In this document: positions 1 through 40,626 of the stretch, piece by piece
How positions within the stretch are numbered: position 1 is the first letter of the stretch
How the letters are laid out: every line of letters begins with the position of its first letter
DNA from: a virus
DNA length: 40,626 bases
IMG/VR virus record: IMGVR_UViG_3300033150_001986
Span: 1 to 40,626 of that record
Reading direction: 5' to 3' (one strand)
Position numbers and translations under genes: made by a program
The notes under the pieces: generated by a model
Told to the model about the DNA's origin: nothing
Databases searched by the model: none
What the model saw: only the letters and a program-made list of their open reading frames with translations

Positions 1-114
1 ACCCTGCTTTTTTCCAATCAAGAACTCACCGCCTCTTAATTTTGCAACAATAATTTCTTTCATTTCGTTCCCTCCATAACCAAAGTGTGCATGCAAGCAC
101 AATTAATTACATTT
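1..114. repeat. terminal direct repeat, left copy
   Basis: These 114 bases are identical to 40513-40626, the last bases of the window. The repeat spans the junction between the head morphogenesis gene and the next gene, and joining the copies keeps both genes intact with a normal ATGA overlap. This shows a circular map or a terminally redundant molecule. I cannot tell a real physical repeat from an assembler overlap. Confidence 0.95.
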
Positions 115-887
115 GCAGCAGAGCCCTTGGGGTCCCGCGGAAACATAAGTTTTTCGTAAGGGTAGCCGGGACCCGGTCTTACACTAAAAGGTTCATTAAC
201 AGGGATAGGATTAGCGGTATAATAAGCCTCCGCTTCTGCATGGCCTTCGCGACCCTTCGGTTTGTGAGACCAAAGCCAAATTTTTCGGGTCTTTGGTAAA
301 TGCTCCGCGACCTTCTGATAAGTCTTATGTTGTATGATTGATTGTGTTCGCATTAATTCAGTTCTTACAATTCTATCAATCTGTCCATAAGTTAAGTCAA
401 AAATTCTTTGTTGCCTTATATCATTGATTACTTGAAAAACAGATTTATTTCCCATTAGACCAAGCGACAAGACATTAGCAAGTTTTCCTTTTAAATAATC
501 GGGAACTGTTTTGATTAATTCGCCCGATAATAATTTAGTGGCTTCAATTGTATCCGGGTCAACAGTAATGCCGCCAACTCCAAAACCGCCTTCAACAAGA
601 AGTTTATTTGTGTTTTCTTGAGTTAGTTCAATCATTTTATCACTTGATTTATTTATTTCATTCACCAAGCGATTTTGAAGTTCTTGTATTCTTGCATCAA
701 CTTCAGCCTTGAGTTGAGGATAATACCATAATTGCCATTCAGTTGGTTCTTGCGCCCTTAAAATTTGAAGAATTTCATTTTTCACATCTTTTAATAATCT
801 TATAAAATGCTTTATTTCCTTTTCAGTTAATTTTTGAGTTTCATTCATAAAAGCCCTGGCTTTCCTCATTAACTTAAATCTACTCAT
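60..887 (-). CDS. minor head / head morphogenesis protein (SPP1 gp7 / Mu F-like)
   Basis: A 275-aa protein. The N-terminal half is helical and charged. The C-terminal part, from about residue 165, has the family layout: an RTEL motif, a W-x-H segment near 210, an FSVRPGPGYPYE turn and a closing PRDP...INCAC cysteine motif. Such proteins join the portal vertex in small numbers and are needed for capsid assembly or DNA delivery. The start overlaps the portal stop by 4 bases, so the two are probably translationally coupled. The stop overlaps the next gene as ATGA, visible in the terminal repeat. The family assignment is from motif and position. Confidence 0.85.
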   Translation of the reverse strand: MSRFKLMRKARAFMNETQKLTEKEIKHFIRLLKDVKNEILQILRAQEPTEWQLWYYPQLKAEVDARIQELQNRLVNEINKSSDKMIELTQENTNKLLVEGGFGVGGITVDPDTIEATKLLSGELIKTVPDYLKGKLANVLSLGLMGNKSVFQVINDIRQQRIFDLTYGQIDRIVRTELMRTQSIIQHKTYQKVAEHLPKTRKIWLWSHKPKGREGHAEAEAYYTANPIPVNEPFSVRPGPGYPYEKLMFPRDPKGSAANVINCACMHTLVMEGTK

Positions 888-2311
888 CTTTTCTTCTCTA
901 ATTGTTTAATCAAATTTTTAACTGCTTCATAAATACGAGGGTTAAGGCTTTCTTGTTGAATATTTTTCTCAATATCTTGAGCGGTTACTTCTATTCCAAA
1001 CTCACCCAAAATATTTGATAATAATCTTCTCGCTGTTTCAGTATCAAGAAGTCCATTTGTAACCGCAACACTTAAAGCCGGGACTAATTTTTGGACTGTT
1101 TCGGCTGTTTGAAAAACTTCTGCTTTAGATGGGTCAGGAAGAACAATATCATAATCCTTATCAACACCCGGTGATAAAATTTGGTGGTCAATTGCTTGTT
1201 GAATAACATAATCAAAGATGAAGGAAAACATATATAAAATATAACCTTGCCTTCTTTTTATCATTTTATGAACGGGTTCAGACATAGCCAAAGCCGTTGC
1301 CCTGTTTGTTGTATCACCAAAACCAAAAAGCCAATGGTATGGAAGTCCTGAACCTGAAGTCAATTGTTCTTCAAGTAATTTAAAGAAGTTGGTTAAATCT
1401 TGAGCCCGTAAATCTGGTGAAACTGCTTTCCATTGTTCCCTATCATTGTGAACTTGGAAAGAGCCTGGCTTTGGTGGGTTCATTTGCAATTCCCTTAATC
1501 TATTTCTTAACTGCTGTTCATTTGCTCCTTCAATCATTATATCCCAAACAAAAGCAAGTAAAAAGGAAATTCTTTCAGTCATTGTGAAGAGTGTTTTGTC
1601 ATATTTATCTAACCAATCAGCAATCGGCAATAAATCAGATTTTCCTCTTGTTGCAAAAGTCCCCTTGTTAATTCTGAAGAAAAATAAATCCCCATAGATT
1701 TTATTCGGCTCTCTTGTTTCAATAATATTTCCATTTTCATCCTTAATCACCCTTAATTTTCTGTTTACATGCATAACCTCAAGAATTTCTTTAGAACTAC
1801 CTTGTTTCAATTTTACCTTTTCAATTCTTTGATAACCTAAATCTTGAACAATTACTTCAGCAATTGATTCAGGGTCTACATCTTGCAAAATTACCTCACC
1901 GTTCTGTTTATCCACATAAACTTCGAAGATTAGTTCCCCATATTTTGATAAATCTTCAATCTTCTGAAATTGATTTAAATCCAACTGATTATTTTCCCAA
2001 AACTTTTCAAGAATTCTTTGAACATTTTCATCTTTTGCTTGAAACCTTAAGCCATCGCCCAAGGTGAAATCTGCAATCAACTTTAAAATTCTCTTTGCTT
2101 GCGGATTTCGTTCTTCGAGCCAATCAACAACTCTTATCATTCTATCTTGCTTTATAGGTGCTAAATTTCTACTTCTTGCGACATCAGTTATTCTTCTCCA
2201 GCCTTCATCTTCCTTATCCCTGGAGATTGCTGAAGTTATTCTTTGCTTAACCTTTTCTTCAACTCTCTTTTCAATCCCAAAAGGGTCTTTGAAAAAATTT
2301 AATATTCCCAT
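884..2311 (-). CDS. portal protein
   Basis: A 475-aa protein directly downstream of the large terminase and upstream of the minor head protein, the standard place for a portal. It has an N-terminal mixed domain, a middle with the typical IADWLDKYDK...MTERISFLLAF helices (about 235-265), then SGSGLPYHWLFGFGDTTNRA, which resembles the conserved portal core. A helical C-terminus follows. The portal forms the dodecameric ring through which DNA is packaged and ejected. The closest type is probably the Mu gp29/DUF935 or SPP1 gp6 group; which one is uncertain. Confidence 0.88.
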   Translation of the reverse strand: MGILNFFKDPFGIEKRVEEKVKQRITSAISRDKEDEGWRRITDVARSRNLAPIKQDRMIRVVDWLEERNPQAKRILKLIADFTLGDGLRFQAKDENVQRILEKFWENNQLDLNQFQKIEDLSKYGELIFEVYVDKQNGEVILQDVDPESIAEVIVQDLGYQRIEKVKLKQGSSKEILEVMHVNRKLRVIKDENGNIIETREPNKIYGDLFFFRINKGTFATRGKSDLLPIADWLDKYDKTLFTMTERISFLLAFVWDIMIEGANEQQLRNRLRELQMNPPKPGSFQVHNDREQWKAVSPDLRAQDLTNFFKLLEEQLTSGSGLPYHWLFGFGDTTNRATALAMSEPVHKMIKRRQGYILYMFSFIFDYVIQQAIDHQILSPGVDKDYDIVLPDPSKAEVFQTAETVQKLVPALSVAVTNGLLDTETARRLLSNILGEFGIEVTAQDIEKNIQQESLNPRIYEAVKNLIKQLEKKR

Positions 2312-2322
2312 TGCTTTACTCC

Positions 2323-3573
2323 TTAAATTAATCTTTCAGGTTCATTTATGTAAAAATTAGAATCAAAATAATTAATTGATGCTAAAGAACTACTTTGCCT
2401 TAATCCCCATGATGCTAATGCTAAAGCAATAACACAATCATCATGATAACCATAAGGTGCTTCCATTTTCAATTTTCCCGAAGGCAAAGTTTTATATTCA
2501 AAAATTCTTAACTCTTCAATTAATTCGGGAATTTCAGGAAAAGTTATTTTTTTATCTTCAATAAGTTTAGATAAATTATTTATTAAATCTGATTTTAATG
2601 CATTCGTGAAGGTTATTCCCTCAATATTATTATATTGCATCTTTAATGCTTCTAAAATTGCATCACCAACTTGACCTTTATCAATATAAATTCGGGGTTT
2701 ATATTTTTCTGCAAGGTTTAATATTCTTTGTATTTGAATTTTCCAAGCAATCTGATTAAATCTATCAAAAGCCACGACATGAGCGGAACCATCTTGTTTT
2801 CTTTTTAAAACAATCAAAACAGTGAAATCTTCATATTTGCCTAAATCAACACCCATAAAATATTCACCATCTTCCTCGGGTTCTTCAAATTGGCCAAAAA
2901 TACAATTGCGAACATTTCTGAAAACGCCTCCGATATTCTCAAGAAATTCTGCAAGTATTTCTTGCCTAAACAATCTTTCGTTCATTGTTTTTCTTGCCTC
3001 TTCAATTTCCTGTTTTAAGATTTGCGGATTATCCATTGTTGTAAAGTGAAAAGATTTATATTCCTTCTCTGAAGCATCCAAACCCTTTTGATATAAAAAA
3101 TAAAAAAAATTTTGTCCTTTAGGTGTTCCAATAAAACAAGCCTCACCTCGTGTATCCATTAAAGTAGGCCTTAAAATCTCTGACCAAATGCTTTCCTTCA
3201 ATGTTGCACATTCATCAAGAACTAAATAATCAAGCCCTATGCCTCTCAAATGGTCAGGCTTATCACCGCTTTTGAATTCAATTACTGAACCGTTCAGAAA
3301 TTCTATATAAAGTTCTGAATCATTTTTGTATTTTATTAATTCAGGAAATAAACTCTTCAAATATCTAAAAGCAATCTTTGATTGTGAATAGACAGGAGCC
3401 ACCCACCAAGACAAACTTTTCTTTCGTTCTAAAGATTTATCGGTCAACCATAACAAAGCCCCTCTTGTTTTGCCCCATCTTCTTCCACATGCGGCAATTT
3501 TGAAGCGGGCTGGGTCATTAAAAACTATTGCTTGCCCGGGTAAATAACTTAATTTAATTTTAATCTCTTGCAT
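2323..3573 (-). CDS. terL: terminase large subunit
   Basis: A 416-aa packaging motor. Walker A is GRRWGKT at about residues 30-36 and Walker B is LVLDE at about 117-121. A nuclease domain follows with VDLGKYEDF near 240, IYIDKGQVGD near 300 and YGYHDDCVIALALA near 385, giving the acidic metal-binding residues of the RNase H-like fold. I start at the ATG at 3573: the upstream in-frame TTG sits too close to the GGAG site to be a good start. The gene overlaps the preceding one by 14 bases. It hydrolyses ATP to pump DNA into the prohead and cuts the concatemer. Confidence 0.96.
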   Translation of the reverse strand: MQEIKIKLSYLPGQAIVFNDPARFKIAACGRRWGKTRGALLWLTDKSLERKKSLSWWVAPVYSQSKIAFRYLKSLFPELIKYKNDSELYIEFLNGSVIEFKSGDKPDHLRGIGLDYLVLDECATLKESIWSEILRPTLMDTRGEACFIGTPKGQNFFYFLYQKGLDASEKEYKSFHFTTMDNPQILKQEIEEARKTMNERLFRQEILAEFLENIGGVFRNVRNCIFGQFEEPEEDGEYFMGVDLGKYEDFTVLIVLKRKQDGSAHVVAFDRFNQIAWKIQIQRILNLAEKYKPRIYIDKGQVGDAILEALKMQYNNIEGITFTNALKSDLINNLSKLIEDKKITFPEIPELIEELRIFEYKTLPSGKLKMEAPYGYHDDCVIALALASWGLRQSSSLASINYFDSNFYINEPERLI

Positions 3574-3889
3574 GCCTTTTAGCAAACTCCTTTAATTCAT
3601 CTAAAACTGAAATTTCAATCTCATGAAAAGGAAATTTGGCTTTTATACCCCTGTATTCCTTTCTAATACTCTTAATCCTATCTATAATATACTTCTTAAA
3701 ATGTTTAAAGTCAATTTTCTTTTGAAATGCATTTTTGATAAAAGGCAAAAGTTCTTCTGAAATTAAATCTCTTTCATAAATATAGAGGACAAAGTCTTCA
3801 TCAGTTAAATTTTCCTTATCAATAAATCTTTGCAAATCTTTAACTCTACTTTTCAACCATTTGACTAAAATTTTTCTTTTAATTTTCAT
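3560..3889 (-). CDS. hypothetical protein between terminase subunits
   Basis: A 109-aa basic, helix-rich protein, lysine-rich at the N-terminus and with no cysteines. It lies between the putative small terminase gene and terL and overlaps both, so it is co-translated with the packaging proteins. I do not recognise a family. Its basic charge and place suggest, by inference only, a packaging accessory or DNA-binding protein. Confidence 0.75.
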   Translation of the reverse strand: MKIKRKILVKWLKSRVKDLQRFIDKENLTDEDFVLYIYERDLISEELLPFIKNAFQKKIDFKHFKKYIIDRIKSIRKEYRGIKAKFPFHEIEISVLDELKEFAKRHARD

Positions 3890-4473: not shown

Positions 4474-4487
4474 TTCTTCCTCCCTTT

Positions 4488-10221: not shown

Positions 10222-10249
10222 CTTAACACCTTATAATATAATAAATTTT

Positions 10250-10435
10250 TTAATCATTTTCCACAATTTTTTTTAATTTTTTAATATAAAAACCATTTCC
10301 ATAAAGTTGCCAAAGTTCTTTATAAAATTTTTCAGTTTCCCTTCTTCCCCATTTGCAATTAGTACATTTTTTATCCAAACCAAAAAATAAAACACAGTTC
10401 CCTAAATAATTTTTATAAATACAATCATGCTTCAT
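10250..10435 (-). CDS. small cysteine-rich protein
   Basis: A 61-aa protein with four cysteines (C5, C14, CTNC near 24-27) in the first half, probably binding a metal, and a basic aromatic C-terminus. Similar 'CxYKNxxGNCxLF...CxxCKW' proteins occur in phages without known function. Its ATG overlaps the stop of the preceding gene as ATGA. Confidence 0.65.
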   Translation of the reverse strand: MKHDCIYKNYLGNCVLFFGLDKKCTNCKWGRRETEKFYKELWQLYGNGFYIKKLKKIVEND

Positions 10436-10602
10436 TTTTTATCCTCCTCATAAATTATTTTTTCAACTAATTTATCATTCTTGCTAATCCAAAAAATCAT
10501 TTTTTTCGGACTTTTCTCCAACTTAATTTTAAAATCGTATCTATCAAGTGTCTCAAGTAAATTATAAAGCAACCATAAATCATTTATCTTCTGCTCTTTC
10601 AT
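10432..10602 (-). CDS. hypothetical 56-aa protein
   Basis: A 56-codon frame from ATG at 10602 to TGA at 10432, linked by overlaps to both neighbours (23 bases upstream, ATGA downstream). The product starts MKEQKINDLWLLYNLL and is helical and charged. Together with the neighbours it leaves no empty space, which supports it as a gene. Function unknown. Confidence 0.65.
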   Translation of the reverse strand: MKEQKINDLWLLYNLLETLDRYDFKIKLEKSPKKMIFWISKNDKLVEKIIYEEDKK

Positions 10603-10831
10603 TTCTCAATCCCCTTGGAAATTTTATGATTAAAATATCAAATAATGCATCGTCTTCAAATCTTCTTGTGAAAATAATTAAAGTTCTCTTATTCAATTTC
10701 TTGAATTCAGGATAACAATCAAATAATTCAATGGAACATAGAATAGAATGAAATTCGGAGATATTTTTAATTTTAATAATTTGAATAAAATTTTTTATTT
10801 TCTTTAGTTTGACTAATAAATTTTGAAACAT
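10580..10831 (-). CDS. hypothetical protein, possibly the 3' part of a longer gene
   Basis: An 83-aa frame with a basic hydrophobic N-terminus (LLVKLKKIKNFIQIIKIK) and a C-terminus with the strand RTLIIFTRRF. The ribosome site is weak. The frame continues upstream without a stop to a run of 12 A, where the preceding 33-aa frame ends. Loss of one A would join the two into a 123-aa protein. It could be a separate gene or half of a split one. Confidence 0.5.
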   Translation of the reverse strand: MFQNLLVKLKKIKNFIQIIKIKNISEFHSILCSIELFDCYPEFKKLNKRTLIIFTRRFEDDALFDILIIKFPRGLRNERAEDK

Positions 10832-10850
10832 TCTCTTAATTCTATTCCTT

Positions 10851-10952
10851 TTATACTTTTTTTTTTTTAAAATTTAATTTTAATTTTTCTTTCTCACTTT
10901 CTCTTTCATTAAAATAATTGTAAAGTATTTCTACGATTTCTTCTTCTTTCAT
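10851..10952 (-). CDS. 33-aa leader frame ending at an A12 run
   Basis: A frame of 33 codons starting MKEEEIVEILYNYF with a clear GGAG site. It runs through 12 consecutive A into a lysine tail and stops two codons later. The downstream frame is out by one base. Either a small protein, or the 5' part of a gene spanning 10580-10952 broken by a homopolymer error or read through by slippage. Confidence 0.5.
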   Translation of the reverse strand: MKEEEIVEILYNYFNERESEKEKLKLNFKKKKV

Positions 10953-10954
10953 TT

Positions 10955-11350
10955 TTAAACTCCTTGTTCTTCCCATTTTTCAATTTGAATTTTAATTAAG
11001 TCCCAATAATGCCTCAACTTTGTCATCATCATTTGATAATATTCCTCATCATCAAGATTCGTATCATTACTCATTATTATTTGCGCTCGCAATTTTTGTG
11101 ATTGCCTTCTTTTATCAACTACATAAGTTCTTCTTCCTTCTTCTGTTTTGATGACCAATTCGCCTGTGGGTTTTGCAACATAAATCAAATCTACAGTTCC
11201 ATCAAAATTTGAAGGTGTCCTAATTTCTGTGATATCAACCATCAATCCAATCGGATAAGTTAAATCTCTCTCAAGGATTATATCCTTTTCTAAATGAAAA
11301 GTTGAGGCATTAATTTTAATTTTCCTTTCGTTAATTTTTAAATCTTGCAT
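10955..11350 (-). CDS. hypothetical protein
   Basis: A 131-aa protein with a very strong AGGAGGAGG site. The N-terminal 90 residues look like a beta-rich fold (LIYVAKPTGELVIKTEEG), and the C-terminal 40 are helical with EEYYQMMMTKLRHYWDLIK. No family recognised. It follows the replication gene and may belong to replication or early-late control. Confidence 0.7.
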   Translation of the reverse strand: MQDLKINERKIKINASTFHLEKDIILERDLTYPIGLMVDITEIRTPSNFDGTVDLIYVAKPTGELVIKTEEGRRTYVVDKRRQSQKLRAQIIMSNDTNLDDEEYYQMMMTKLRHYWDLIKIQIEKWEEQGV

Positions 11351-11384
11351 AGTTCCTCCTCCTCCTTTTTTTTAGATAAAACAT

Positions 11385-12191
11385 CTACATTCTTTTCAAA
11401 ATGTTGATATTTTTTCCACCCGCAATCTGTTTTAACAAATTAATAAAATTAAAGTCTTGTTTTTTCTGATAATCCTTTGCTTTTTGATAAATTCCGCCAT
11501 TAACCTTCTCAAGTTCATCTATTATTTTATTTTTCATAATCGCAAAGTATTTTAAATCTTTTTTGAATGGCTCACATGCCTTTTTAATCGGATTAAACCA
11601 ACTCATGCAAACTTGAAAATTACGGGGACAATAACCATGTTCAATCATTTTATCGCACCAGAATTTCATTATTGTATTATTCTTAAGTGACCGAAAATAT
11701 TGGCATCGTTCCCAACCGGGAGGCCTATAACTATTTAAAGAACTTATCTTCTCTTCCTTAACTATTTTTTCTTTTTCTGAAGGAACTTCGTTATTCTTCG
11801 AAGAAGAATAATTATTATTAATTGTATTATTCATTGTAATATTCTTGGTGAAGTTTTCTTCATACCCCTCTGAACTTTTCTTCATACCCCTATGAAGATT
11901 TTTACATACCTCTTGAACTATAAAAATTTTTCGCTTAAAATTTTGTTCAATTTCAATTTTAATATAGCCTTCATTCTCTAATTGTTTCAACCACGCTTGA
12001 ATGCTCCTCTCACTTACCTTATACAATTCTGCAAAATATTTATTATTAGCCCAACAAAAACCTTCTTTATTGCAAAGTGCAGTTATTTCACCATATAATA
12101 ATTTCGCATTTGCGGTCAAATTTTTATTATACCTCACATAAGCGGGAATTACAGCGTAAAAAGATGGGTCACTTTGAATAATTTCATTCAT
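11385..12191 (-). CDS. HTH replication initiator-like protein
   Basis: A 268-aa protein. Residues 5-85 form a winged helix of the helix_turn_helix_36 type: FYAVIPAYVRYNKNLTANAK, GFCWANNKYFAELY, VSERSIQAWLKQLENEGYI. A low-complexity Asn/Ser-rich linker (about 115-150) and a helical C-terminal domain with conserved Trp and Cys follow. The same layout is found in phage and plasmid replication initiators and DnaD-like loaders. The leader upstream carries GC-rich interlocking repeats. It probably binds the origin; origin position unproven. Confidence 0.75.
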   Translation of the reverse strand: MNEIIQSDPSFYAVIPAYVRYNKNLTANAKLLYGEITALCNKEGFCWANNKYFAELYKVSERSIQAWLKQLENEGYIKIEIEQNFKRKIFIVQEVCKNLHRGMKKSSEGYEENFTKNITMNNTINNNYSSSKNNEVPSEKEKIVKEEKISSLNSYRPPGWERCQYFRSLKNNTIMKFWCDKMIEHGYCPRNFQVCMSWFNPIKKACEPFKKDLKYFAIMKNKIIDELEKVNGGIYQKAKDYQKKQDFNFINLLKQIAGGKNINILKRM

Positions 12192-12526
12192 AGAAATCCT
12201 CCCTTAAAAATAATAATGCCCCGGGTTTAGTGGAAGATGTGAGGAGGAAATGATGAAATTTCGAGGAGTAAAATTTAGAAGTTAAAAATTTACCCGGGGC
12301 TAAATTTTCCACTGAAATGAAAATATTGAATTTTTTTTTAAGAATCAAGCAATAATATTTTTTGTTCAAATGATTTCCTAAATTACGATATATCCGCATT
12401 TTTTTAAATGTTTAACCCATATAAACCATAGTCAGTTTTCCCAACCATATATGATTTCAAGGTAACAAAATTAACCCTATTTTTACACTTATGCAACCAT
12501 TTAAAAAATAATTGCTTTAGTTTGTT
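12192..12526. other. 335-base intergenic leader, possible origin
   Basis: No convincing gene. The part next to the replication gene holds two GC-rich arms (12218-12226 and 12292-12300) interlocked with two 7-base arms (12229-12235 and 12307-12313). The distal part holds repeated AACCAT/AACCCAT words (near 12414, 12424, 12444, 12494). Several weak -35/-10 pairs can be drawn on the minus strand; none is convincing. A 71-codon frame (12184-12399) is probably chance. Confidence 0.5.
12218..12313 (-). promoter_or_regulatory. interlocked inverted repeats upstream of replication gene
   Basis: On the minus strand the order is AGTGGAA, GCCCCGGGT, a loop of about 56 bases, TTCCACT, ACCCGGGGC. The two pairs cross, so the transcript could form a pseudoknot ending about 15 bases before the GGGAGG site of the replication gene. 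The loop carries two CTCCTC words able to pair with that ribosome site. It could be a translational control element or, as DNA, part of an origin. Confidence 0.5.
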
Positions 12527-12817
12527 TTAAACAAGGCCAAAGTATTCAGAAAACTCTCCCCATCCTTTACATTCAGGACATTCAATTAGAATATAACCAT
12601 TATCACTCCGTTTCCATCTGTGATAAATTTCTAATAATTCGCTAAAAGAATACTCATATTTTGAATAAAGGTCTTCTAAATAATCTTTTAGTTCTTCTTC
12701 ATCTCTAAAACCGACTTCAATATAACCCTCTCCATTGCAATGTTCACATTCACAATGTACTTCTTCATAGCAATCCATATAATTTCCCGTCCAACTCGTA
12801 AATTTTAAAACTTGCAT
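12527..12817 (-). CDS. DnaJ-type zinc-finger protein
   Basis: A 96-aa protein with two halves of a DnaJ cysteine-rich module: CECEHCNGEG at about 22-31 and CPECKGWGEF at about 80-89. A predicted helical acidic hairpin (EEELKDYLEDLYSKYEYSF) separates them. It probably folds as one zinc site and binds protein or nucleic acid. Small proteins of this kind are common in phage early regions; exact role unknown. Confidence 0.75.
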   Translation of the reverse strand: MQVLKFTSWTGNYMDCYEEVHCECEHCNGEGYIEVGFRDEEELKDYLEDLYSKYEYSFSELLEIYHRWKRSDNGYILIECPECKGWGEFSEYFGLV

Positions 12818-12829
12818 AAAACACCTCCT

Positions 12830-13405
12830 TTATTTTTCTTTTATATATTTTCTAACTTCTTTTCTGTTTTTCACATTACGACAATACCAATAAGCCCACT
12901 TATTATCTTTGATATTTTTCCAAACTTCTTTTCTATCTTTAACATCAAGACAATACCGACAAGCATATTCACTATCCGTTATATTCTTCCAAACTTCTTT
13001 TCTATCTTTTATATACTTGCAATATTCATAAGCCCATTTGCTATCTCTTATATTTTTCCTAACATCTCTTCTATCTTTGATATAAAGACAATACCAATAA
13101 GCCCATGCACTATCCTTAACCTTGCTTGCATCTATTTCCCTCAATATCTTTATTTCTCTACAACAAATTTTATCTTCGTCTTCAATATATTCATTTCCAA
13201 TAGGGATTGCCTCAAAAACACGACTCCCAAAATCTCCAACGCTAACGTTTTTCAATGATTTATATAAATGCAAACCATTTGCGCACATAAAAAGTTTTCC
13301 CTCAACTCTAAATGTTCGATTTTCCCAATTTTCATAAGAAAAATTCGTATTACTTGGTGCTTTTAAATCTTCTGTTAAGACTTTGTAATATCTTTTTTGT
13401 TTCAT
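12830..13405 (-). CDS. DUF7666-like protein with four 23-residue repeats
   Basis: A 191-aa protein. Residues 1-95 look like the phage 'YKVLTEDLKAP...F.CANGLHLYKSL' domain (DUF7666-like). Residues 97-188 are four consecutive 23-aa repeats with consensus DSxWAYxYCxxIKDRKEVxKNI. The repeats resemble DUF4116-type helical solenoids, which usually mediate protein contacts. At DNA level the period is 69 bases (12842-13117), so copy number could vary by recombination. Function unknown. Confidence 0.75.
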   Translation of the reverse strand: MKQKRYYKVLTEDLKAPSNTNFSYENWENRTFRVEGKLFMCANGLHLYKSLKNVSVGDFGSRVFEAIPIGNEYIEDEDKICCREIKILREIDASKVKDSAWAYWYCLYIKDRRDVRKNIRDSKWAYEYCKYIKDRKEVWKNITDSEYACRYCLDVKDRKEVWKNIKDNKWAYWYCRNVKNRKEVRKYIKEK

Positions 13406-13429
13406 CTTTACTTCCTCCTTTCATTATCT

Positions 13430-13597
13430 TTAAATAGAAAATCTTTTATAATTATTTTTCATTTTTATATATTGTTCATTTCTTTTCTGAATTCTTTTTT
13501 TTATTTCATATAATTTTTTTCTTAAATATCTATTTTCTTCTTTAAACTTCTCTATTCTATCAAATAAGATTTTTAACACTTCTTTATCAATATTCAT
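13430..13597 (-). CDS. 55-aa basic coiled-coil protein
   Basis: A 55-codon frame from ATG at 13597, coupled as ATGA to the nuclease gene before it. The product is almost entirely heptad-like helix rich in K, E, I and L (for example KFKEENRYLRKKLYEIKKR). It fills an otherwise empty gap. Possibly a small partner of the nuclease; no family recognised. Confidence 0.65.
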   Translation of the reverse strand: MNIDKEVLKILFDRIEKFKEENRYLRKKLYEIKKRIQKRNEQYIKMKNNYKRFSI

Positions 13598-14454
13598 TTT
13601 GATTTCTCCATTAAACTTCTATAAAAATTACAAAATTCTTTATAATCACAATATTCTAAACATCTTCGGGGTTCACCTTCTCTTTTCTCTATATAACAAT
13701 TGTGAAGATTATTATTCTCAATATACATTTCCGCTTCTGCATATGAATTTAACAATCTTATAGCACTTTTTCTATTTTTTTTCATAACAGCAAATTGTGT
13801 TGGTGATTGCCATCTGTCTGTTTCATCACATTCGGGGATATTATCATCATTAACTTTCGCATACTTGAATAATTCACATAATCTTTCTTTTATCCATAAT
13901 TTTACATTTTCGCAAATCGGAATGTCAATTATTTGAATTTGTGAAGCAGGATAATCTTTTTCTCTTTGCGCTCTTCCTTTTGACCAGTCCCTTAATATTG
14001 CAATTACTTTTAATTTCTTAACTTCAAAACCATATTCATTGAGCATATATTTATAGACATTAAGTTGATTAACCCAATTATTATAAGAAGAAGAACCATA
14101 CAAATATGACCAGACAGAAGTAATTTTGAAATCATATACAGTTTTATCTTCATACAAATCTGGAACTCCAACAATAGTGCACTCATTGAGTTCAATTTTT
14201 AATTTTTCTTCTGATAAAGCGTTTGCTTGTGCAGATTTTTCAAGAATGTAATGAACCGATTTTCCCAAAAGAAGCCAAATGCGACTTTCAACATCAACTT
14301 CAACTTCATTATAGTGTCTACGACGAAGCCAGAAATATTTTGGAGAATAATCTAATTCTGTTACAGAAATTCTGTTATCTTTAAAAACTCTGTCTTGTGT
14401 TTCTATCGCTCTAATAATTGATTTTGGATATTTTTCAGAATTTTTTATTTTCAT
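13594..14454 (-). CDS. RecB/Cas4-like PD-(D/E)xK exonuclease
   Basis: A 286-aa protein with the RecB-family nuclease core: GKSVHYILEK (H68), GVPDLYEDKTVYDFK (D99, D108 and K110) and a helix with WVNQLNVY (Q130). The C-terminus has cysteines at 253, 265, 269 and 275, probably an Fe-S or zinc cluster as in Cas4 and AddB. Such exonucleases resect DNA ends to give single strands for an annealing protein; a candidate partner is encoded two genes upstream. Confidence 0.82.
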   Translation of the reverse strand: MKIKNSEKYPKSIIRAIETQDRVFKDNRISVTELDYSPKYFWLRRRHYNEVEVDVESRIWLLLGKSVHYILEKSAQANALSEEKLKIELNECTIVGVPDLYEDKTVYDFKITSVWSYLYGSSSYNNWVNQLNVYKYMLNEYGFEVKKLKVIAILRDWSKGRAQREKDYPASQIQIIDIPICENVKLWIKERLCELFKYAKVNDDNIPECDETDRWQSPTQFAVMKKNRKSAIRLLNSYAEAEMYIENNNLHNCYIEKREGEPRRCLEYCDYKEFCNFYRSLMEKSK

Positions 14455-29511: not shown

Positions 29512-30093
29512 TCACCTCCAATTTAAAAATTGAAATTTATTTAAGTTTGAATCAGGATTTAAATTATAAATCTCCGATTTCCATCTCTTATAATCAAAAT
29601 CCTTCAGCCAATAACCCTTTTCAAGAACTCTTTGAATCATTCTTTTTTCACTGGGATAGATTGAAATTTTTCCTTCGTAGTAATGTGCTTTATTATCTGA
29701 TGTAAATTTATAATCAAAGCCAATCAAGAATATTTTCTTTAAGCCTAAAAGTTCAGCGAGTTGCAAAGCATAGAAGCCTGTATGACACCCTTCTTTAAAA
29801 ATCTCAAAGTCAAAATAATAATCTGTAAGACGAAAGATAACCTTTTCATAGGAAACTATTTTATTGTATAGAATAGGATAACCATTCTCTGAAACCCAAT
29901 TGCAGAAAAATCTATCTGTATGTATAACAAAATCAACCGGCTTTGGCAGATTTAAAAAACAGAAATTTGGAACGATAATAATCCAATCTGTTGGGATAAC
30001 AGAAAAATCAAAATGCTTTGCCGATTCCCCAGAACCAATCACAAGCCCAATTTTTCCTTTGTAAAAATTTTTCAACACCTTAACATAATTCAT
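29512..30093 (-). CDS. Rossmann-fold glycosyltransferase-like protein (DUF115/GT42-type)
   Basis: A 193-aa protein starting at ATG 30093 (GGAG upstream, ATGA overlap). GKIGLVIGSGESAKHFDF at about 15-33 is a nucleotide-binding loop, and CHTGFYALQLAELLGLKKIF with LIGFDYKF at about 108-135 is the signature of DUF115/MptE-like and sialyltransferase-like proteins. It probably transfers a sugar or handles a nucleotide-sugar. Its place between the tail terminator and tail tube genes is unusual and hints that tail proteins may be the substrate. Confidence 0.7.
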   Translation of the reverse strand: MNYVKVLKNFYKGKIGLVIGSGESAKHFDFSVIPTDWIIIVPNFCFLNLPKPVDFVIHTDRFFCNWVSENGYPILYNKIVSYEKVIFRLTDYYFDFEIFKEGCHTGFYALQLAELLGLKKIFLIGFDYKFTSDNKAHYYEGKISIYPSEKRMIQRVLEKGYWLKDFDYKRWKSEIYNLNPDSNLNKFQFLNWR

Positions 30094-30563
30094 GTCGAAC
30101 TCCAAAGTTCTGTATAAGTTACAGAAATTTCTGCCCTATGAACTAACCAATTGGAAAACATTTCTTCAGTTATATTTGAAAGCATAGGAGGATTATCATC
30201 CATCCACCTTGCTTCTGAATTCAACTGTTGCGTTTTATACAATGCTTCAAGAATTTCATCCAAAGCCTTTTCAAAATTAATTCCCGATAAAGAAGAATCT
30301 TCTAATGAATAAATTCCCACAATTCTGAAATTATAATTTTTATTCAATGCCAAAGAACCTGATGCAACCTTTTCAGCAGTTATGGAATTAAGTTCAATAA
30401 TCCAAGCATTTATTTTATTATTTTCTGAATAAAAGTTGTAAATCTCTTGCCAATCTGTTGAGTGTTTTCTGTAATCTGAAACCTTACCACCGCCCAAAGT
30501 TCCTGAGTTCAGTGTGTTCTGAATTAATGTCTTTAAATCACTTCTGATTGCTGTTAAACTCAT
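30090..30563 (-). CDS. tail terminator / tail completion protein
   Basis: A 157-aa protein: an N-terminal helix (LTAIRSDLKTLIQNTL), strands with NAWIIELNSI and YNFRIVGIYSLED, a helix FEKALDEILEALYK and a closing strand HRAEISVTYTEL. This alternation is typical of the lambda gpU/HK97 tail terminator family, which caps the tail tube. It overlaps both neighbours. Confidence 0.75.
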   Translation of the reverse strand: MSLTAIRSDLKTLIQNTLNSGTLGGGKVSDYRKHSTDWQEIYNFYSENNKINAWIIELNSITAEKVASGSLALNKNYNFRIVGIYSLEDSSLSGINFEKALDEILEALYKTQQLNSEARWMDDNPPMLSNITEEMFSNWLVHRAEISVTYTELWSST

Positions 30564-33782: not shown

Positions 33783-35549
33783 TTAAGATAAACCAGCCAC
33801 TATCCCAGCATAAAAACCTCTATAATCTACAACACAACCACCATATTCATGTCTTACTTTGTATCTTATTCGGTCATAGGTAAATACCTGGTCAACATTT
33901 GGAGCATCCTGTAAAATTATTTCTGGTTCTTGTCTTCCGTCTATAAAACCAATAACAATCGTTTCAATGTCATTTGGGTCTGCAATTATATACCAGTTAT
34001 TTTTATCGCCTCTCAAATAACCAGCGGGAACAATGATTGGTTCAAGTGCTTTATAATTTGGGTTCACGCTTTCAATTGTTCCTGTTGTCGAGGAAGCTGC
34101 AACAACTGGTCTTCTTTCAGAATCAATCAATACTTTAATTGTTCCTCTTAATTCATAAGGAACTACAGCAAACTTTGCTCTCAGCCCAAGTGGTTCATTA
34201 GAATCCTTTTCTGTCTGATTTGCTATTGCTGTTATTGCCGCATCAAGAGAATCAAAATCAAGAGTGTCGGTTGTTAAGTTATTATGGTCTGCATGATACA
34301 AGGCTTTTCCATCATAAATTGTCCCACCATTAATTGAGCCCGAACCATAATTAACAAGCAAATCAAAGACAAATTTTGCCAAAGTTCGTGCGGCAGCCTG
34401 TGCAATCTTAACAGGCCATTTTCTGATTGTTCGCAAATCATCATTCTTTATCATCTCTCTTGTAAGTGATAAAATTTTACCGTACTTCTTTGCTGTATAA
34501 CTTGCTTTTTCTTCTGAAGGAGAAGTGAAGGTTGTATAGTTACCATCTTCAGCAACCTCAGGTAAATCACTTAAACCGCCCCATCTTATGATATCTTGCT
34601 GTTTGAAATTATCTATGTTTTCAATAATTGTAAATCTTCTCCAAGCATCCTGAATTGGAAGTCTTCTATATTCCTTAACCATTCTTCTTGTCATTGAAGT
34701 TCCTAAAGCCTGTGGGAAGTCTGTTGACACTGCTTCAGTTATTCTTTTATCAAAATGACCATCCACATTTCTGTCGCCTGTAAATTGAATATATGCTTCT
34801 TTCAAACTTCTGAAAGCAGGAACATCTTTCCAATCATCCTTTTCATTATCTTCTGGTTCAACACCCATCATCTTGTGCATAGCAATCTGAAGTTTATCTG
34901 TTTTGTCTCTTGTAATGTGAACAGTGACAGGCTCAGATTCTGCAAATTTAGCAACATATTCTTTTTCCTCTGCAATTGCCTTTTGTATTTCTTCTTCACT
35001 TACCTTCTTGCCTTCAAAAAGTTTTTTAATTCTGTTTCTTGAAAATTCGGGAAGTTCAGATTTATTCAATGCCTCAATTAATTTCATCTGTGATTCTTTA
35101 ACTTCAATCTTTTCAAGAAGTTCATTTACTTTATCAAGTTTTTCTTTTACCTCATTATCCTCCTCTGAAGATTTTGCTGGGTAACCATAACCATAAGCAC
35201 CAGGTTTCTTATAGTAACCAGCCAATAGAGAAGATAACAAATCTAAAGCATCATCAACTTTCTTATCTTTTAACATTTTGATAACAGAACCCAAAACAGC
35301 AGAAGGAATTTCAACTTCCTTTAAATCTTGTGAACTTGTATCCTTTTTATCTTTTGCTTCCTGAACTTCAGGTTCTTCTGTTTTCTTCTCTTCTTTCTTT
35401 TTCTTTGCCTCTCTTGCATTCAGTGCTTCAGCAAGTAAATCAAGAATTTCCTCATCTGTTTTTTCATCAAGATTGATGTCTTCTTTTATGCCTAAAATCT
35501 CAGGATTATCCCTGATTATTGCAATTAATTGTTTTAAATTTGGACTCAT
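33783..35549 (-). CDS. internal product: scaffold-major capsid protein
   Basis: Inside the fusion gene, Met197 is preceded by AAGGAGGG with six bases of spacing, as good a site as any in the genome. Starting here gives 588 aa with the scaffold and capsid but no protease, like the nested scaffold of lambda C/Nu3. This would supply capsid protein in excess over the protease form. Confidence 0.6.
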   Translation of the reverse strand: MSPNLKQLIAIIRDNPEILGIKEDINLDEKTDEEILDLLAEALNAREAKKKKEEKKTEEPEVQEAKDKKDTSSQDLKEVEIPSAVLGSVIKMLKDKKVDDALDLLSSLLAGYYKKPGAYGYGYPAKSSEEDNEVKEKLDKVNELLEKIEVKESQMKLIEALNKSELPEFSRNRIKKLFEGKKVSEEEIQKAIAEEKEYVAKFAESEPVTVHITRDKTDKLQIAMHKMMGVEPEDNEKDDWKDVPAFRSLKEAYIQFTGDRNVDGHFDKRITEAVSTDFPQALGTSMTRRMVKEYRRLPIQDAWRRFTIIENIDNFKQQDIIRWGGLSDLPEVAEDGNYTTFTSPSEEKASYTAKKYGKILSLTREMIKNDDLRTIRKWPVKIAQAAARTLAKFVFDLLVNYGSGSINGGTIYDGKALYHADHNNLTTDTLDFDSLDAAITAIANQTEKDSNEPLGLRAKFAVVPYELRGTIKVLIDSERRPVVAASSTTGTIESVNPNYKALEPIIVPAGYLRGDKNNWYIIADPNDIETIVIGFIDGRQEPEIILQDAPNVDQVFTYDRIRYKVRHEYGGCVVDYRGFYAGIVAGLS

Positions 35550-36137
35550 TTTTTTCCCTCCTTGTTCTAAAATTTTTTGAATAGAAGCAACCATCCTCAA
35601 AAGTTTCCCGCCCGCCGCGGGTAATGTAACGATATCAACAGACGAAACTTCCTTAATTGAAAGAACCTTTTTTCCGCTTCTGCCATCAGCCACATACGGA
35701 ACAGCATCACCAATTGCATCAATAGAGAAACCGAGTAAATCCTTCTTACCTTCTTTAAAAGCATTCTTAAAAGTTTTTCTAAAGAAGTCATCTGTGATAA
35801 CAAAGTCAGCAGTTATGCGAGGATTTGGTTTTTCTTCATATTTCACATTTTCCAACCACCCGGCTAAATTTTTAGCAAAAGATAAATTATCTTGTTTTAA
35901 GTTGTCGGGTAAATGATTGAAAAAATTATTATCAAATTTGTAAGCAAAGACTTTTGAGCCCTCAAACAATGGAGCAGATTTTCGGAGAACCTCAGGAGAA
36001 TAATAAACATTATTTTTACTCCAACCGCTTTCAATAACTACGATTCTCCATCTGCGTCCCTCATTTTCAGACTCACGAAGAACTTTACAGATTAATTGAG
36101 TTTTATATTCTGTTGCATCAAAATCAGAATATAACAT
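33783..36137 (-). CDS. prohead protease - scaffold - major capsid protein fusion
   Basis: A 784-aa protein. Residues 1-190 resemble a prohead protease, with NHLP near 73, AGWLENVKYE, LLGFSIDAIGD near 135 (catalytic Ser) and VDIVTLPAAGG near 170. Residues about 197-400 are a charged Lys/Glu coiled region like a scaffold. Residues about 425-784 are a capsid protein with LSLTREMIKNDDL and IILQDAPNVDQVFTYDR, as in Mu-like and other HK97-fold capsids. The parts are usually separate genes. A consensus promoter lies upstream and an internal start at 35549. Confidence 0.85.
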   Translation of the reverse strand: MLYSDFDATEYKTQLICKVLRESENEGRRWRIVVIESGWSKNNVYYSPEVLRKSAPLFEGSKVFAYKFDNNFFNHLPDNLKQDNLSFAKNLAGWLENVKYEEKPNPRITADFVITDDFFRKTFKNAFKEGKKDLLGFSIDAIGDAVPYVADGRSGKKVLSIKEVSSVDIVTLPAAGGKLLRMVASIQKILEQGGKKMSPNLKQLIAIIRDNPEILGIKEDINLDEKTDEEILDLLAEALNAREAKKKKEEKKTEEPEVQEAKDKKDTSSQDLKEVEIPSAVLGSVIKMLKDKKVDDALDLLSSLLAGYYKKPGAYGYGYPAKSSEEDNEVKEKLDKVNELLEKIEVKESQMKLIEALNKSELPEFSRNRIKKLFEGKKVSEEEIQKAIAEEKEYVAKFAESEPVTVHITRDKTDKLQIAMHKMMGVEPEDNEKDDWKDVPAFRSLKEAYIQFTGDRNVDGHFDKRITEAVSTDFPQALGTSMTRRMVKEYRRLPIQDAWRRFTIIENIDNFKQQDIIRWGGLSDLPEVAEDGNYTTFTSPSEEKASYTAKKYGKILSLTREMIKNDDLRTIRKWPVKIAQAAARTLAKFVFDLLVNYGSGSINGGTIYDGKALYHADHNNLTTDTLDFDSLDAAITAIANQTEKDSNEPLGLRAKFAVVPYELRGTIKVLIDSERRPVVAASSTTGTIESVNPNYKALEPIIVPAGYLRGDKNNWYIIADPNDIETIVIGFIDGRQEPEIILQDAPNVDQVFTYDRIRYKVRHEYGGCVVDYRGFYAGIVAGLS

Positions 36138-36202: not shown

Positions 36203-36231
36203 AATATACTCAACTTTAAGAATCTTGTCAA
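36203..36231 (-). promoter_or_regulatory. strong promoter for the capsid gene
   Basis: On the minus strand TTGACA, 17 bases, TATATT: a near-perfect housekeeping promoter, in the same AAAAATACTTGAC context as the early promoter. Between the start and the capsid gene lies a direct repeat of AAGCCAGCC (36174-36193), possibly an operator or stabiliser. Confidence 0.85.
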
Positions 36232-36238: not shown

Positions 36239-36427
36239 TTATTCTTCTTTCTTATTTAAAATCAGACCGCCTGTTTTTGTTATTTTTAAAATATATTCTT
36301 TCCTGCCTTCTAAATTGATGACAAGGGGAAGCGATTCCCGACTAATTGAGACTTTTCCATCTTTTATAATCAAGGTTTCTTCTCTTAAATCTTTTTCATC
36401 AAGTTCCTTATAAATTAATTCAGTCAT
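36239..36427 (-). CDS. hypothetical 62-aa protein
   Basis: A small protein with an acidic helical start (ELIYKELDEKDLREE) and beta-rich end (REYILKITKTGGLILNK). It follows the 1286-aa protein directly and ends 8 bases before the capsid promoter. No family recognised. Confidence 0.65.
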   Translation of the reverse strand: MTELIYKELDEKDLREETLIIKDGKVSISRESLPLVINLEGRKEYILKITKTGGLILNKKEE

Positions 36428-39400
36428 TTATCGCTCCTCCCCAACTGATTTTGAAATTTTAAAAACCCAAATATCACTTTCCGGGGACTCCCTGACAAAT
36501 ACTCTTCTACCCTTTAGTCTTTTGCCCTTGAAATCTATATGAATAAAATTATCTGTTTTTTCAATTACTTTAGCCTCGCCAGAGTCCAAAATTAAATAAT
36601 ACATCGGAATTCGCTTATTCGGATTTTTAACATGTTCGGCAGGAAGTTCTCCTTCAAAAGTTAACCAATCCTTAAAATCTCCCTTTGGAGGCTTCGTGTT
36701 TTCTATGCTTAAAATTCCAACCATCTCATCAGAATAGATTGGGTTGCTTTCAGTTTCAAATTTTTTAAGTTTATTTTCTCCAAAATCAAGAAATAATTCA
36801 AATCTTTGAACAGGCATCCCTCTTATAACAGTTTGTCCCTTCCACCATGCTTTTGATAAGGTCCATTTTATTTTTTCAGTTTTGGCTTCTTTTAATTCAA
36901 TTTTTTTGTAAGGAAATTCTTTTAAATTTTCTGTAAGCCAATTAAATGCCTTATCTATTAAATTCAATTTTTCTTTATCGCTTAACTTCTTCTTTTCCCA
37001 CCATCTTAATTCTTGTGGAATTCTTTTCTTCCATTCTTCATTTAAACCACTTAAACCATCAGGAGGTATATAATCTTTCTTTAATCTCGCTCTGCGAGTT
37101 AAGATATAAGGAATTTGATTCTCAAAATCTTCTTTTGCAAACCATGCCATCCAGACAAGTTTTCCTTTTCCAACTTTCTCCCATTCTTTTCTTGCAGGTA
37201 TTTTTCTAACAACCCATCTTCCATAATATCTTTTTCCATGTTCCCAATATTCTTTAAAATAGACTTTCTGAGTTCCGAATTCCTTTAAAGTTCCCTCTTG
37301 AATGTGATAAAAATAACCGGCCCCGTGTTCTGTTGCCCCAACCGTACCGGGTTCAACTTTGCCTTTAAATTCTAACCAGACTAAAGGTTGCCTTGCCTTT
37401 GGAAAGCAAAGGACTTTCCTTTCAGGCAATCTTGGGTCAAACTTCCAAAGTTTCTTTTCATAGAAATATTTTTCTAACTTTTTGGCTTCTTCTTCAGTAT
37501 CAACATCCTTTTCTATTCCCAATTCCTTTCTTGCTTTATCTACGATGCCCGTTTCAGGTTGGTCTGCAATGGTCCAACCATTCAGATGGTCATTAACCTT
37601 AAATCTATGGTCATTATGAACAGAAGACAATTTTCTCCAATGGTGTTCAAACAAAGTTTTATCTGTTTTGTCTGCAACTGGAATGTCAAATTGTTCTTTT
37701 AACCGGACTTCTTCTTTTAATTTTTCTTCAACTTGATTTTCAAATTCTAAAACTTCATCTTCTGTAAAATAATCATCCCAATATAAACCCAATTCCTCGG
37801 CTTCTTTGATTGCTTGAAGCCTTTGTTCTTGTAATTCGTCTTCACCGATACTTTCTAAAAGCGAATATTCATAAGGGTCTAAATCATATAGAAATGGGTA
37901 ACTTTCCTGAAGCCAATCTTGATAATCAAGCAAAGGTTGAAAAGTTTCCTTTAATTTTTCAAATGCAATTCTATATCTTTTGGGAAATTTTTTTTCTTCA
38001 ACTTCTCCATGAGTTTCCTTAACTCTTTCCTCAGCGAATTCTACAGTATCAGGTCGTTCTTTATCTTCCCTGTATTCAATTGGCCTTGGAGCCCACCAAT
38101 TAAACCAAATTTCTCCGGTATCCGGGTCAATATATTTATTTAAGTTTGTAAAGGCAACTCTAATAATTCCACCGATGGGAACTTGAATTGGTTTTCCTTT
38201 TCTTTCAAATTTCACATTATAAGTTCTCCCAATCGGGACCAATTTGCCTTTTGCATCTCTTATTGCACATAAATAATTATAAGAATCCGTTCCCTTAACC
38301 CTATGAACCTCAACAACTTCAGCATCTATGTCCGCTTCCTTTTTAAACTTCATCCATTCATTTGTATGACCTGTCAAGGGATAAATTGAATTATTTTTCT
38401 TTAACATCGCACCTTCTGAGCCTTTTTGCTTTGAAAAATATTTAATTGCTTTTTCCAAATCCTTTTCATTGTTTACAATTCTAATTTCAATTACTCTTAT
38501 TTTATCACCCGAAGGAATTTTTTCTAAAAATTTTCTTCTTTCTTTCAAAGGTAATTTATGCAAGTCTTGACCATCATAATATAAACAATCAAAAGCATTA
38601 ACAAAATAAGGGCTATCATCAGGCTCACCCTTCTCATGTGCATAACCTGAAACATCAGACCTTCCCATGTGTTCGCCTTCGGGAGTCCAACCTTCTAATT
38701 CACAATCTATGATAAAGTCATGTTTGATTTTATTTGCTTCTTTTAAGAAGTTCGGAAATCTTTTCGTAACATCCCCACCATCTTCAGACCAAATAATATT
38801 TTTTCCATCTTTTGAATGATGCCATTGAACTCGGAAGCCATCAAATTTTCGGTCTACCTCTATTTCGGGAAACTTCCCATCTTCAAGCCAAATTTCTTTT
38901 ATTTTTGCTATTGTTCCCTCAATGGTAAACATTTCTAATTTCCTATACCCTGCAATACCTTTTAACTGAATAAAGAATCTGAATAACTCAACCTTGTCTT
39001 CTTTTCTTGATTGTTCAGCCATCTTCTTAACTTCTGCATCTTTAATTCTTTGTTCTCTAAAAATGTCCCAACTTTCAGACATCTTAAATAATTTTCTTTG
39101 CTCGGGCTTAATCATTTCAACTTTTAAATTAGCAAATGGAACATAGTTAGTAAAAGGACCACGATAATCGGGAATAAGATGAATTTTATCTCTCCATTCT
39201 GGAGGTATCATAGATTTTAATCTGAATTCCAAAATATCAAGAAATTTTTTATCCCAAGAAGGCCAATTAACATTTATATCTATATCATTTCCCCAACCCG
39301 AAACACAACTTCCTCCAACAAAGCAAAGTAAAGGCTTTCTTACTTCAAAGCCATCTTGCCATAAATTTAAAAGGTCTTTTAAAAAAATTGCATTTTCTTT

Positions 39401-40288
39401 AATTTCCTTCTTCTTAAAAAATTCCAAAGATAACTCATCAAGTTCAGTTTGTGGCCTATGTTCCAAACCTCGCCTTCTCATTTCTTCCATGATTAAGATG
39501 TGTTGGTCAATCATCCATTCTGGAGGTTGCTTACCAGTTTCAAGAGAATATTTTCTTGCTTGCGCATGAATTTGGGCATGTAATTGAATTAATTGCTGGT
39601 CGGTTAACTTTTGCAAATTCCAATCTTTTGGGAGAAAAGTTGATGCAAATAATCGTTTGTCTTGAACAATTTTTAAACTGCCCGGGATGGGCTTTGGTTT
39701 TTCAAATGGGATAAATTCCCGAATTCTATACAAATAAAAATTTTCTAAATCATCAAAAATCTTTTGCCTCATTGAACAACGAAGTTCGCTTTCAGTTATC
39801 CTGTGTTCATTATAATAACTTTCAAAATCTTCTTTTGTGATTTTTTCGGGTTCTTGGAATCTGATAAAGCCCCAAACATAATCGCCTGAAATCAAAAAAT
39901 TCATTTTTTCTAAATTTTTATTCTCTTCTGCTGTTACTGTTGCAGTTTTCTTTCCGTTGAAAATTAGTTCGCCCTGTGGAGCAGGGAGTTCTATTCCTGT
40001 GTTGATTATCCGTCTCAAGGTTTGCCTTAAAAATCTTTTTGAACTCGGCTTCATTAAATCGGGATGGAAAGTTATTTCATTTAATTCAAGAATTCTTTTA
40101 AGAAGTTTTTCACCAGTTTTTAAAACATTTTCAATTCCTTCGTATTCAGTCTTTTTGCCTTGTTCTTCAAGAGAAAACTTCGCTGCTAAAATTCTGAAAT
40201 CATCAGCCAAAACTTTTGAATCCGAAATTTTGCTTGGGTCATAATTTTTCCAATCTTTTATCTCTCTTAATTTTTCTCCTTTCTTCAT
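36428..40288 (-). CDS. nucleotidyltransferase - ATP-dependent DNA ligase - phosphoesterase fusion
   Basis: A 1286-aa protein in the head gene cluster, ATGA-coupled to the gene before. Residues 1-310 are helical and unknown. About 320-400 is a Pol-beta-like nucleotidyltransferase: GGSCVSGWGNDIDI (G325, D335, D337) and KVEMI (E391). About 440-740 is an ATP-dependent DNA ligase: KFDG 481-484 with adenylated Lys481, FIIDCELEG, EGAMLKK 625-631, WMKFKK 645-650, then an OB part. About 878-1035 resembles the LigD 3'-phosphoesterase: HHWRKL, HNDHRF (H891, D893, R895), GWTIAD, EHGAGYF, YYGRWVVRK. About 1140-1286 may be a second, degenerate copy. Probably a DNA-end-joining enzyme carried in the head. 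Confidence 0.8.
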   Translation of the reverse strand: MKKGEKLREIKDWKNYDPSKISDSKVLADDFRILAAKFSLEEQGKKTEYEGIENVLKTGEKLLKRILELNEITFHPDLMKPSSKRFLRQTLRRIINTGIELPAPQGELIFNGKKTATVTAEENKNLEKMNFLISGDYVWGFIRFQEPEKITKEDFESYYNEHRITESELRCSMRQKIFDDLENFYLYRIREFIPFEKPKPIPGSLKIVQDKRLFASTFLPKDWNLQKLTDQQLIQLHAQIHAQARKYSLETGKQPPEWMIDQHILIMEEMRRRGLEHRPQTELDELSLEFFKKKEIKENAIFLKDLLNLWQDGFEVRKPLLCFVGGSCVSGWGNDIDINVNWPSWDKKFLDILEFRLKSMIPPEWRDKIHLIPDYRGPFTNYVPFANLKVEMIKPEQRKLFKMSESWDIFREQRIKDAEVKKMAEQSRKEDKVELFRFFIQLKGIAGYRKLEMFTIEGTIAKIKEIWLEDGKFPEIEVDRKFDGFRVQWHHSKDGKNIIWSEDGGDVTKRFPNFLKEANKIKHDFIIDCELEGWTPEGEHMGRSDVSGYAHEKGEPDDSPYFVNAFDCLYYDGQDLHKLPLKERRKFLEKIPSGDKIRVIEIRIVNNEKDLEKAIKYFSKQKGSEGAMLKKNNSIYPLTGHTNEWMKFKKEADIDAEVVEVHRVKGTDSYNYLCAIRDAKGKLVPIGRTYNVKFERKGKPIQVPIGGIIRVAFTNLNKYIDPDTGEIWFNWWAPRPIEYREDKERPDTVEFAEERVKETHGEVEEKKFPKRYRIAFEKLKETFQPLLDYQDWLQESYPFLYDLDPYEYSLLESIGEDELQEQRLQAIKEAEELGLYWDDYFTEDEVLEFENQVEEKLKEEVRLKEQFDIPVADKTDKTLFEHHWRKLSSVHNDHRFKVNDHLNGWTIADQPETGIVDKARKELGIEKDVDTEEEAKKLEKYFYEKKLWKFDPRLPERKVLCFPKARQPLVWLEFKGKVEPGTVGATEHGAGYFYHIQEGTLKEFGTQKVYFKEYWEHGKRYYGRWVVRKIPARKEWEKVGKGKLVWMAWFAKEDFENQIPYILTRRARLKKDYIPPDGLSGLNEEWKKRIPQELRWWEKKKLSDKEKLNLIDKAFNWLTENLKEFPYKKIELKEAKTEKIKWTLSKAWWKGQTVIRGMPVQRFELFLDFGENKLKKFETESNPIYSDEMVGILSIENTKPPKGDFKDWLTFEGELPAEHVKNPNKRIPMYYLILDSGEAKVIEKTDNFIHIDFKGKRLKGRRVFVRESPESDIWVFKISKSVGEER

Positions 40289-40575
40289 TTCTTTATCTCC
40301 TCTAAATTGATTATCTTATTTTTTGAAACCACGATATTTGAAGTTAACTCAATATATTTCTCTGCAAGTTTCTCACTTGCCTCTGCATAGTATAAAGTTT
40401 CATCTAAATTAATTTTTATATCCTTTGCATTTTTAAAAAGCCTTACGAAGATATCAGAAAAACCGATTCCATTTCGGTCAAAGAAAATATTTAAGGGTCG
40501 CTCAATAAGATTACCCTGCTTTTTTCCAATCAAGAACTCACCGCCTCTTAATTTTGCAACAATAATTTCTTTCAT
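40285..40575 (-). CDS. hypothetical 96-aa protein
   Basis: I start at the ATG at 40575, overlapping the head morphogenesis stop as ATGA (read in the terminal repeat) with GGAGGG upstream; the frame opening at 40614 is not used. The protein begins MKEIIVAKLRGGEFLIGKKQ and is alpha/beta, with a C-terminal basic strand. No family recognised. Co-translated with the ligase fusion. Confidence 0.7.
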   Translation of the reverse strand: MKEIIVAKLRGGEFLIGKKQGNLIERPLNIFFDRNGIGFSDIFVRLFKNAKDIKINLDETLYYAEASEKLAEKYIELTSNIVVSKNKIINLEEIKK

Positions 40576-40626
40576 TTCGTTCCCTCCATAACCAAAGTGT
40601 GCATGCAAGCACAATTAATTACATTT
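40513..40626. repeat. terminal direct repeat, right copy
   Basis: Identical to bases 1-114. The circular unit is therefore about 40,512 bp. Confidence 0.95.

Follow-up and report, generated by a model that had tools for sequence, protein, structure and literature searches.

What could a multidomain protein with a DNA ligase core be doing when its gene lies among those for the virion head? The question is posed by the virus record IMGVR_UViG_3300033150_001986, the whole of which (40,626 bases) was analyzed and is referred to below as the window. The initial annotation had placed in it a single-chain DNA end-joining enzyme, encoded between a minor head protein gene and the capsid gene.

Position of the ligase gene in the viral genome

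The window begins and ends with an exact 114-bp direct repeat (positions 1..114 are identical to positions 40513-40626). On this basis it is a complete genome, and its map was treated as closed. The open reading frame at 36428-40288 proved to be real: a single open frame on the minus strand encodes a protein of 1286 aa, designated P0001. The features around it are as follows:

2323..3585, minus strand: terminase large subunit (TerL)
884..2311, minus strand: portal protein
60..887, minus strand: MuF-type head morphogenesis protein, upstream of the ligase gene over the circular junction
40285..40576, minus strand: small gene directly upstream of the ligase gene, phrog_527, of unknown function (PHROGs)
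36428..40288, minus strand: ligase gene, P0001, 1286 aa (open reading frame)
36239..36427, minus strand: 62-aa open reading frame between the ligase and capsid genes
36203..36231, minus strand: σ70-like promoter match TTGACA-17-TATATT (11/12), ahead of the capsid gene
33783..36137, minus strand: major capsid protein fused to the maturation protease

As can be seen, reading the minus strand through the junction gives TerL, portal, MuF, the small gene, the ligase, the 62-aa ORF and protease/capsid, in this order. The head-gene context claimed for the ligase is borne out, but this depends on closure of the contig through the 114-bp repeat; one small gene intervenes on the MuF side and the 62-aa ORF on the capsid side. 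Since the ATG of the ligase gene overlaps the stop codon of the preceding gene (ATGA), the ligase gene probably belongs to the portal operon; a motif resembling a ribosome-binding site, GAGGAG, is located ahead of it at 40297-40302. The capsid gene has a promoter-like site of its own, and expression of the ligase may therefore be separate from that of the shell.

Several other window genes were noted in passing. A ParB-like N-terminal domain is fused to a DNA methyltransferase at 4592-5719, and a 735-aa glycosyltransferase (group 1, with “GT4-conflict” also matched weakly) is encoded at 6926-9133. A similar protein is found among tail genes at window positions 29512-30105 and in relative L006 at 11141-11713, with a DUF115-type likeness judged by eye only. 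An SLT lytic transglycosylase domain at 9501-10049 (E = 2.9e-13) is a hint of a bacterial host; by contrast, the relative of P0001 that is closest among those named comes from an archaeal virus.

Domains of P0001

The following regions were delimited in P0001, from the N-terminus to the C-terminus:

39737..39976, minus strand: probable ASCH (PUA-like) domain, residues 105-184 (weak Pfam and profile matches; module aligned in L006-L008)
39449..39637, minus strand: small helical domain, residues 218-280, common to L006 and L007 (alignment A2; AF2 helices)
39089..39391, minus strand: probable Pol-beta-type nucleotidyltransferase (NTase), residues 300-400 (motif conservation)
38309..38911, minus strand: ATP-dependent DNA ligase adenylation domain, residues 460-660 (Pfam, Foldseek, profile search)
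37994..38308, minus strand: OB domain with motif VI (PRPIEYREDK), residues 661-765 (alignment, AF2, Foldseek)
37109..37681, minus strand: PE1, LigD-type 3′-phosphoesterase (PE)-like domain, residues 870-1060 (hhalign; Pfam LigD_N in relatives)
36431..36886, minus strand: PE2, second PE-like domain without catalytic residues, residues 1135-1286 (A4 profile, Foldseek)

By sequence and predicted structure, residues 460-765 are certain to represent an ATP-dependent DNA ligase core. All three motifs named in the initial annotation, KFDG (residues 481-484), EGAMLKK (residues 625-631) and WMKFKK (motif V), were located, together with motif VI, and Pfam DNA_ligase_A_M matches P0001 with E = 8.4e-29. 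In the family alignment, the nucleophile K481 (codon at 38846-38848), E625, K630, K647 and K649 are invariant, motifs I-V being present, and P734 and R740 are conserved within motif VI. The AF2 model of the OB region and Foldseek match DNA ligases; for the whole core, the best Foldseek hits were archaeal DNA ligases (2.2e-21), and a profile search of PDB retrieved DNA ligases (best 1e-25). A Pfam search of P0001 did not reveal the N-terminal DNA-binding domain that is classical for replicative ligases. In a tree of ligase cores that included 3 LigD-type and 10 archaeal ligases as references, the family forms a clade of its own (100/100), apart from both.

Residues 300-400 probably contain an NTase of the Pol-beta type, as the initial annotation had held. 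What stood of that claim is the motif: both aspartates of GG...NDID, D335 and D337, are present in nine of nine members and the third acid, E391, in eight of nine. Support at the level of fold was not obtained, since most of the region was modeled by AF2 with pLDDT below 50 and a PDB profile search returned no match. The Pfam signal is weak; in hhalign the region scored 21.6 against NTP_transf_2, compared to at most 11.4 in 30 shuffles, with a probability of only 8.5 and a match of no more than motif length. Further upstream, an ASCH-like domain is weakly supported by a Pfam match over residues 105-184 that falls under the cut-off (E = 0.024) and by a weak match of profile A3 over the same residues (E = 0.23) to PDB entries 1WK2/2DP9, which we take to be ASCH-fold structures.

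The C-terminal half is, by homology, a tandem of two LigD-PE-like domains, the second of which is degenerate. When compared to 12 canonical PEs by hhalign, PE1 was matched with a probability of 92.6 (E = 4.6e-7), which bears out the LigD-PE relationship proposed earlier for residues 870-1040. Pfam LigD_N recognizes the PE1 region of relatives (E down to 3.7e-5); it gave no match with the P0001 sequence of the window itself. The A4 profile matches archaeal LigD PEs, PDB 3P43 (6.8e-8) and 3P4H (1e-4), over the C-terminal part and best over residues 1135-1286, the segment of the degenerate second PE. All six significant Foldseek matches of the modeled C-terminal half were LigD PEs, not assigned by the tool to PE1 or PE2; PE2 is the better-modeled part.

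P. aeruginosa LigD holds manganese through His42, His48 and Asp50 and contacts the phosphate through Arg52, His84 and Tyr88; mutants at either His84 or Tyr88 are inactive (PMC8656161). PE1 retains the counterparts of the manganese triad and of Arg52 (H883, H891, D893 and R895). In alignments to canonical PEs, which keep His at the His84 position and keep Tyr at the Tyr88 position, Trp being rare there, PE1 has Q967 and W971, respectively. Family-wide, position 967 varies and W971 is nearly constant. PE2 has none of the catalytic set (His42, His48, Asp50, Arg52, His84 and Tyr88). Thus, the proposed relationship of PE1 to the LigD 3′-phosphoesterase stands, but with the counterparts of His84 and Tyr88 gone, PE1 cannot be assumed to clean 3′ ends in the manner of LigD.

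Relatives of P0001

Scans made directly with the peptides P0001 and P0002 retrieved no viral relatives, while a two-sequence profile search found relatives that these scans had missed. Profile searches yielded six viral contigs, contigs of a Methanosarcinales MAG and one contig of the bacterium Ca. Hatepunaea (L013); two of the viral contigs, L009 and L010, are identical over the stretch compared. Among 58 genomes of the archaeal class to which the MAG belongs, 5 held further copies at E ≤ 1e-30. Matches of ca. 74-88 bits to the ligase core in genomes of the order Methanosarcinales were set aside as cellular archaeal ligases. A Parachlamydiaceae locus (L014) was matched by the profile but is an ordinary Ku-PE-LigD operon, and it was used as a reference.

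The closest named homologue, AJP62006.1, is encoded by the ANMV-1 virus of methane-seep archaea (KP703175.1). Like P0001, it carries NTase-like, ligase, PE1 and PE2 regions in a single chain, with 34% identity over 301-767 and 29% over 955-1277. Unlike P0001, it is 866 aa long and has no N-terminal ASCH/helical part. Its annotation, “ATP-dependent DNA ligase”, names the ligase only.

The ANMV-1 gene is located directly after the portal gene. When each place was counted once, the family gene lay beside a portal or MuF, maturation protease or capsid gene at 11 of 17 loci (the window, L006, L007, L008, L009, L011, L012, L018, L085, L088 and ANMV-1). In L006, the capsid gene was called by its similarity to that of the window in order and sequence, and a gene sized like the small upstream gene of the window sits directly upstream of the ligase. 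The gene directly upstream in L009 is unnamed by PHROGs; a terminase gene precedes it and a capsid gene follows. At L084, only a weak terminase match was found, and at five of the 17 loci (L013, L083, L086, L087 and L090), several of them short, no head gene was recognized with a limited query set.

The architecture varies between members. The L007 protein has additional MBL-fold and D12 methylase domains, and the L009 protein has a D12 methylase inserted downstream of the NTase acids. A fused prohead protease was considered for the last 183 aa of the latter protein, but neither PHROGs nor hhalign supported it. L012 has a divided gene: PE1 is encoded by an ORF of its own, separated from the ligase ORF by about 3.5 kb (2341-5859) that holds other genes. 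The L006 ligase gene (867-4659) is frameshifted within PE1, possibly by an assembly error or a real break. In Ca. Hatepunaea, the family gene is followed by one (7277-14158) whose 2293-aa product contains repeated units and a stretch resembling endonucleases (phrog_452). For L011 and L012, which are related copies from archaeal MAGs, dN/dS was 0.067 over the NTase and ligase and 0.109 over PE1. It thus follows that, in this pair, both regions are under strong purifying selection and are maintained.

Possible roles of P0001

Bacterial LigD is the known enzyme that comes to mind, since it combines a ligase with a 3′-PE-type domain and, in many members, a nucleotide-transfer domain. LigD, however, has a primase-type polymerase and a Ku partner, and the P0001 system has neither: the complete genome contains no match to the LigD primase-polymerase (AEP, PF21686) at E up to 10 and no match to Ku (PF02735), although a Ku of the host is possible. 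In addition, the PE of P0001 is duplicated and altered. With its ligase in a separate clade and no Ku or primase-polymerase, P0001 is not a LigD, though it may work like one. Of the “end-joining enzyme” first proposed, the ligase and the PE relationship remain; the altered PE1 and the NTase region lacking fold support weaken it, and with no Ku or LigD primase-polymerase in the complete genome the name is a guess. Sealing of nicks or gaps is at least as likely. Stand-alone archaeal LigD-PEs (PDB 3P43, 3P4H and 5DMP) share the fold of part of the C-terminal half but are single-domain proteins. African swine fever virus, according to PMC6344480 and PMC5330486, encodes a Pol-beta-like polymerase X and a ligase for genome repair; these are separate proteins of an unrelated animal virus, and the parallel is an analogy only. 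No paper describing the ligase family was found in a partial coverage of the literature.

A closer parallel is offered by polyvalent proteins, in which disparate domains are joined in one chain encoded beside portal, MuF or capsid genes, and for which Iyer et al. 2017 (PMC5512222) argue that, being encoded next to virion genes, they are packaged and injected with the viral DNA. P0001 likewise has unrelated domains in one chain, and its gene lies among those for the virion in a virus of the portal-terminase kind. In its main text, that paper names no LigD, ASCH or DNA ligase domains and speaks of ligases only as RNA ligases; its NTases differ in being of a minimal type, mostly from conjugative elements. 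By analogy with polyvalent proteins, and given the recurrent gene position, packaging and injection of P0001 are plausible. The D12 adenine methylase and MBL fusions in relatives are as expected of polyvalent proteins.

We therefore favor, at a probability of about 0.5, the reading that P0001 is a multidomain DNA repair protein of the polyvalent type, produced from the head-gene operon of a tailed virus, packaged, delivered and used to mend the incoming genome. P0001 would enter the capsid during head assembly and be delivered into the cell together with the DNA, where its targets would be nicks, short gaps or 3′ ends that are blocked, and their repair would allow the genome to be sealed or circularized. 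Such a process would assign nucleotide addition to the NTase, trimming or binding of 3′ ends to PE1, DNA binding to PE2 and sealing to the ligase domain. In favor of this reading are the ligase and PE domains, the conserved NTase motif, the purifying selection on both regions and the recurrent head-gene position; against it count the separate promoter-like site of the capsid gene, the two substitutions in PE1, the NTase region lacking fold support and the five loci at which no head gene was recognized. A bolder version, in which archaeal and bacterial viruses inject with their genomes a virion-borne, single-chain, Ku-free machine for end joining or gap repair, with the Pol-beta-type NTase replacing the LigD primase, we consider doubtful.

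The same operon position, and a need for the same activities, would be expected if P0001 were made late and acted in the producing cell, where it would repair replicated DNA that has nicks or gaps, either ahead of packaging at the portal or while this proceeds, without itself being delivered. This is possible, if somewhat unlikely: by itself it leaves the adenine methylase and MBL fusions of relatives unexplained, and these fit protection of incoming DNA better. P0001 could also be an ordinary viral ligase for replication or repair with accessory nucleic-acid-binding modules (degenerate PEs and an inactive NTase), its place among head genes being inherited and functionally meaningless. The degeneracy of PE2, the changes at two essential sites of PE1 and the NTase region without fold support all agree with such a view, which is nevertheless rather improbable, since the NTase acids and the PE1 metal ligands are kept across diverged members, PE1 is under purifying selection and the head-gene position recurs in diverse viruses.

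Finally, the substrate may be RNA, such as tRNAs cut by a host defense, with the ASCH-like and NTase domains binding and maturing RNA ends. ASCH domains as a rule have links to RNA, which is also the substrate of many Pol-beta NTases, and a weak ASCH match is present in P0001. Yet the ligase core matches DNA ligases in both sequence and fold searches of PDB, and the LigD-type PE works on 3′ ends of DNA (PMC8656161), which makes repair of RNA highly improbable.

Returning to the repair protein of the polyvalent type, the fact that viruses of methane-cycling archaea have the same protein at an equivalent position suggests that it may be taken into the cell as a means of repairing the viral DNA that arrives there. 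If so, the particles of tailed viruses of archaea and bacteria would come equipped with their own tools for mending the genome. P0001 would then offer a concrete, testable protein with which to ask what becomes of viral DNA that is damaged or gapped when it enters, and it would join ligase, NTase and PE in a natural combination whose build differs from that of LigD.
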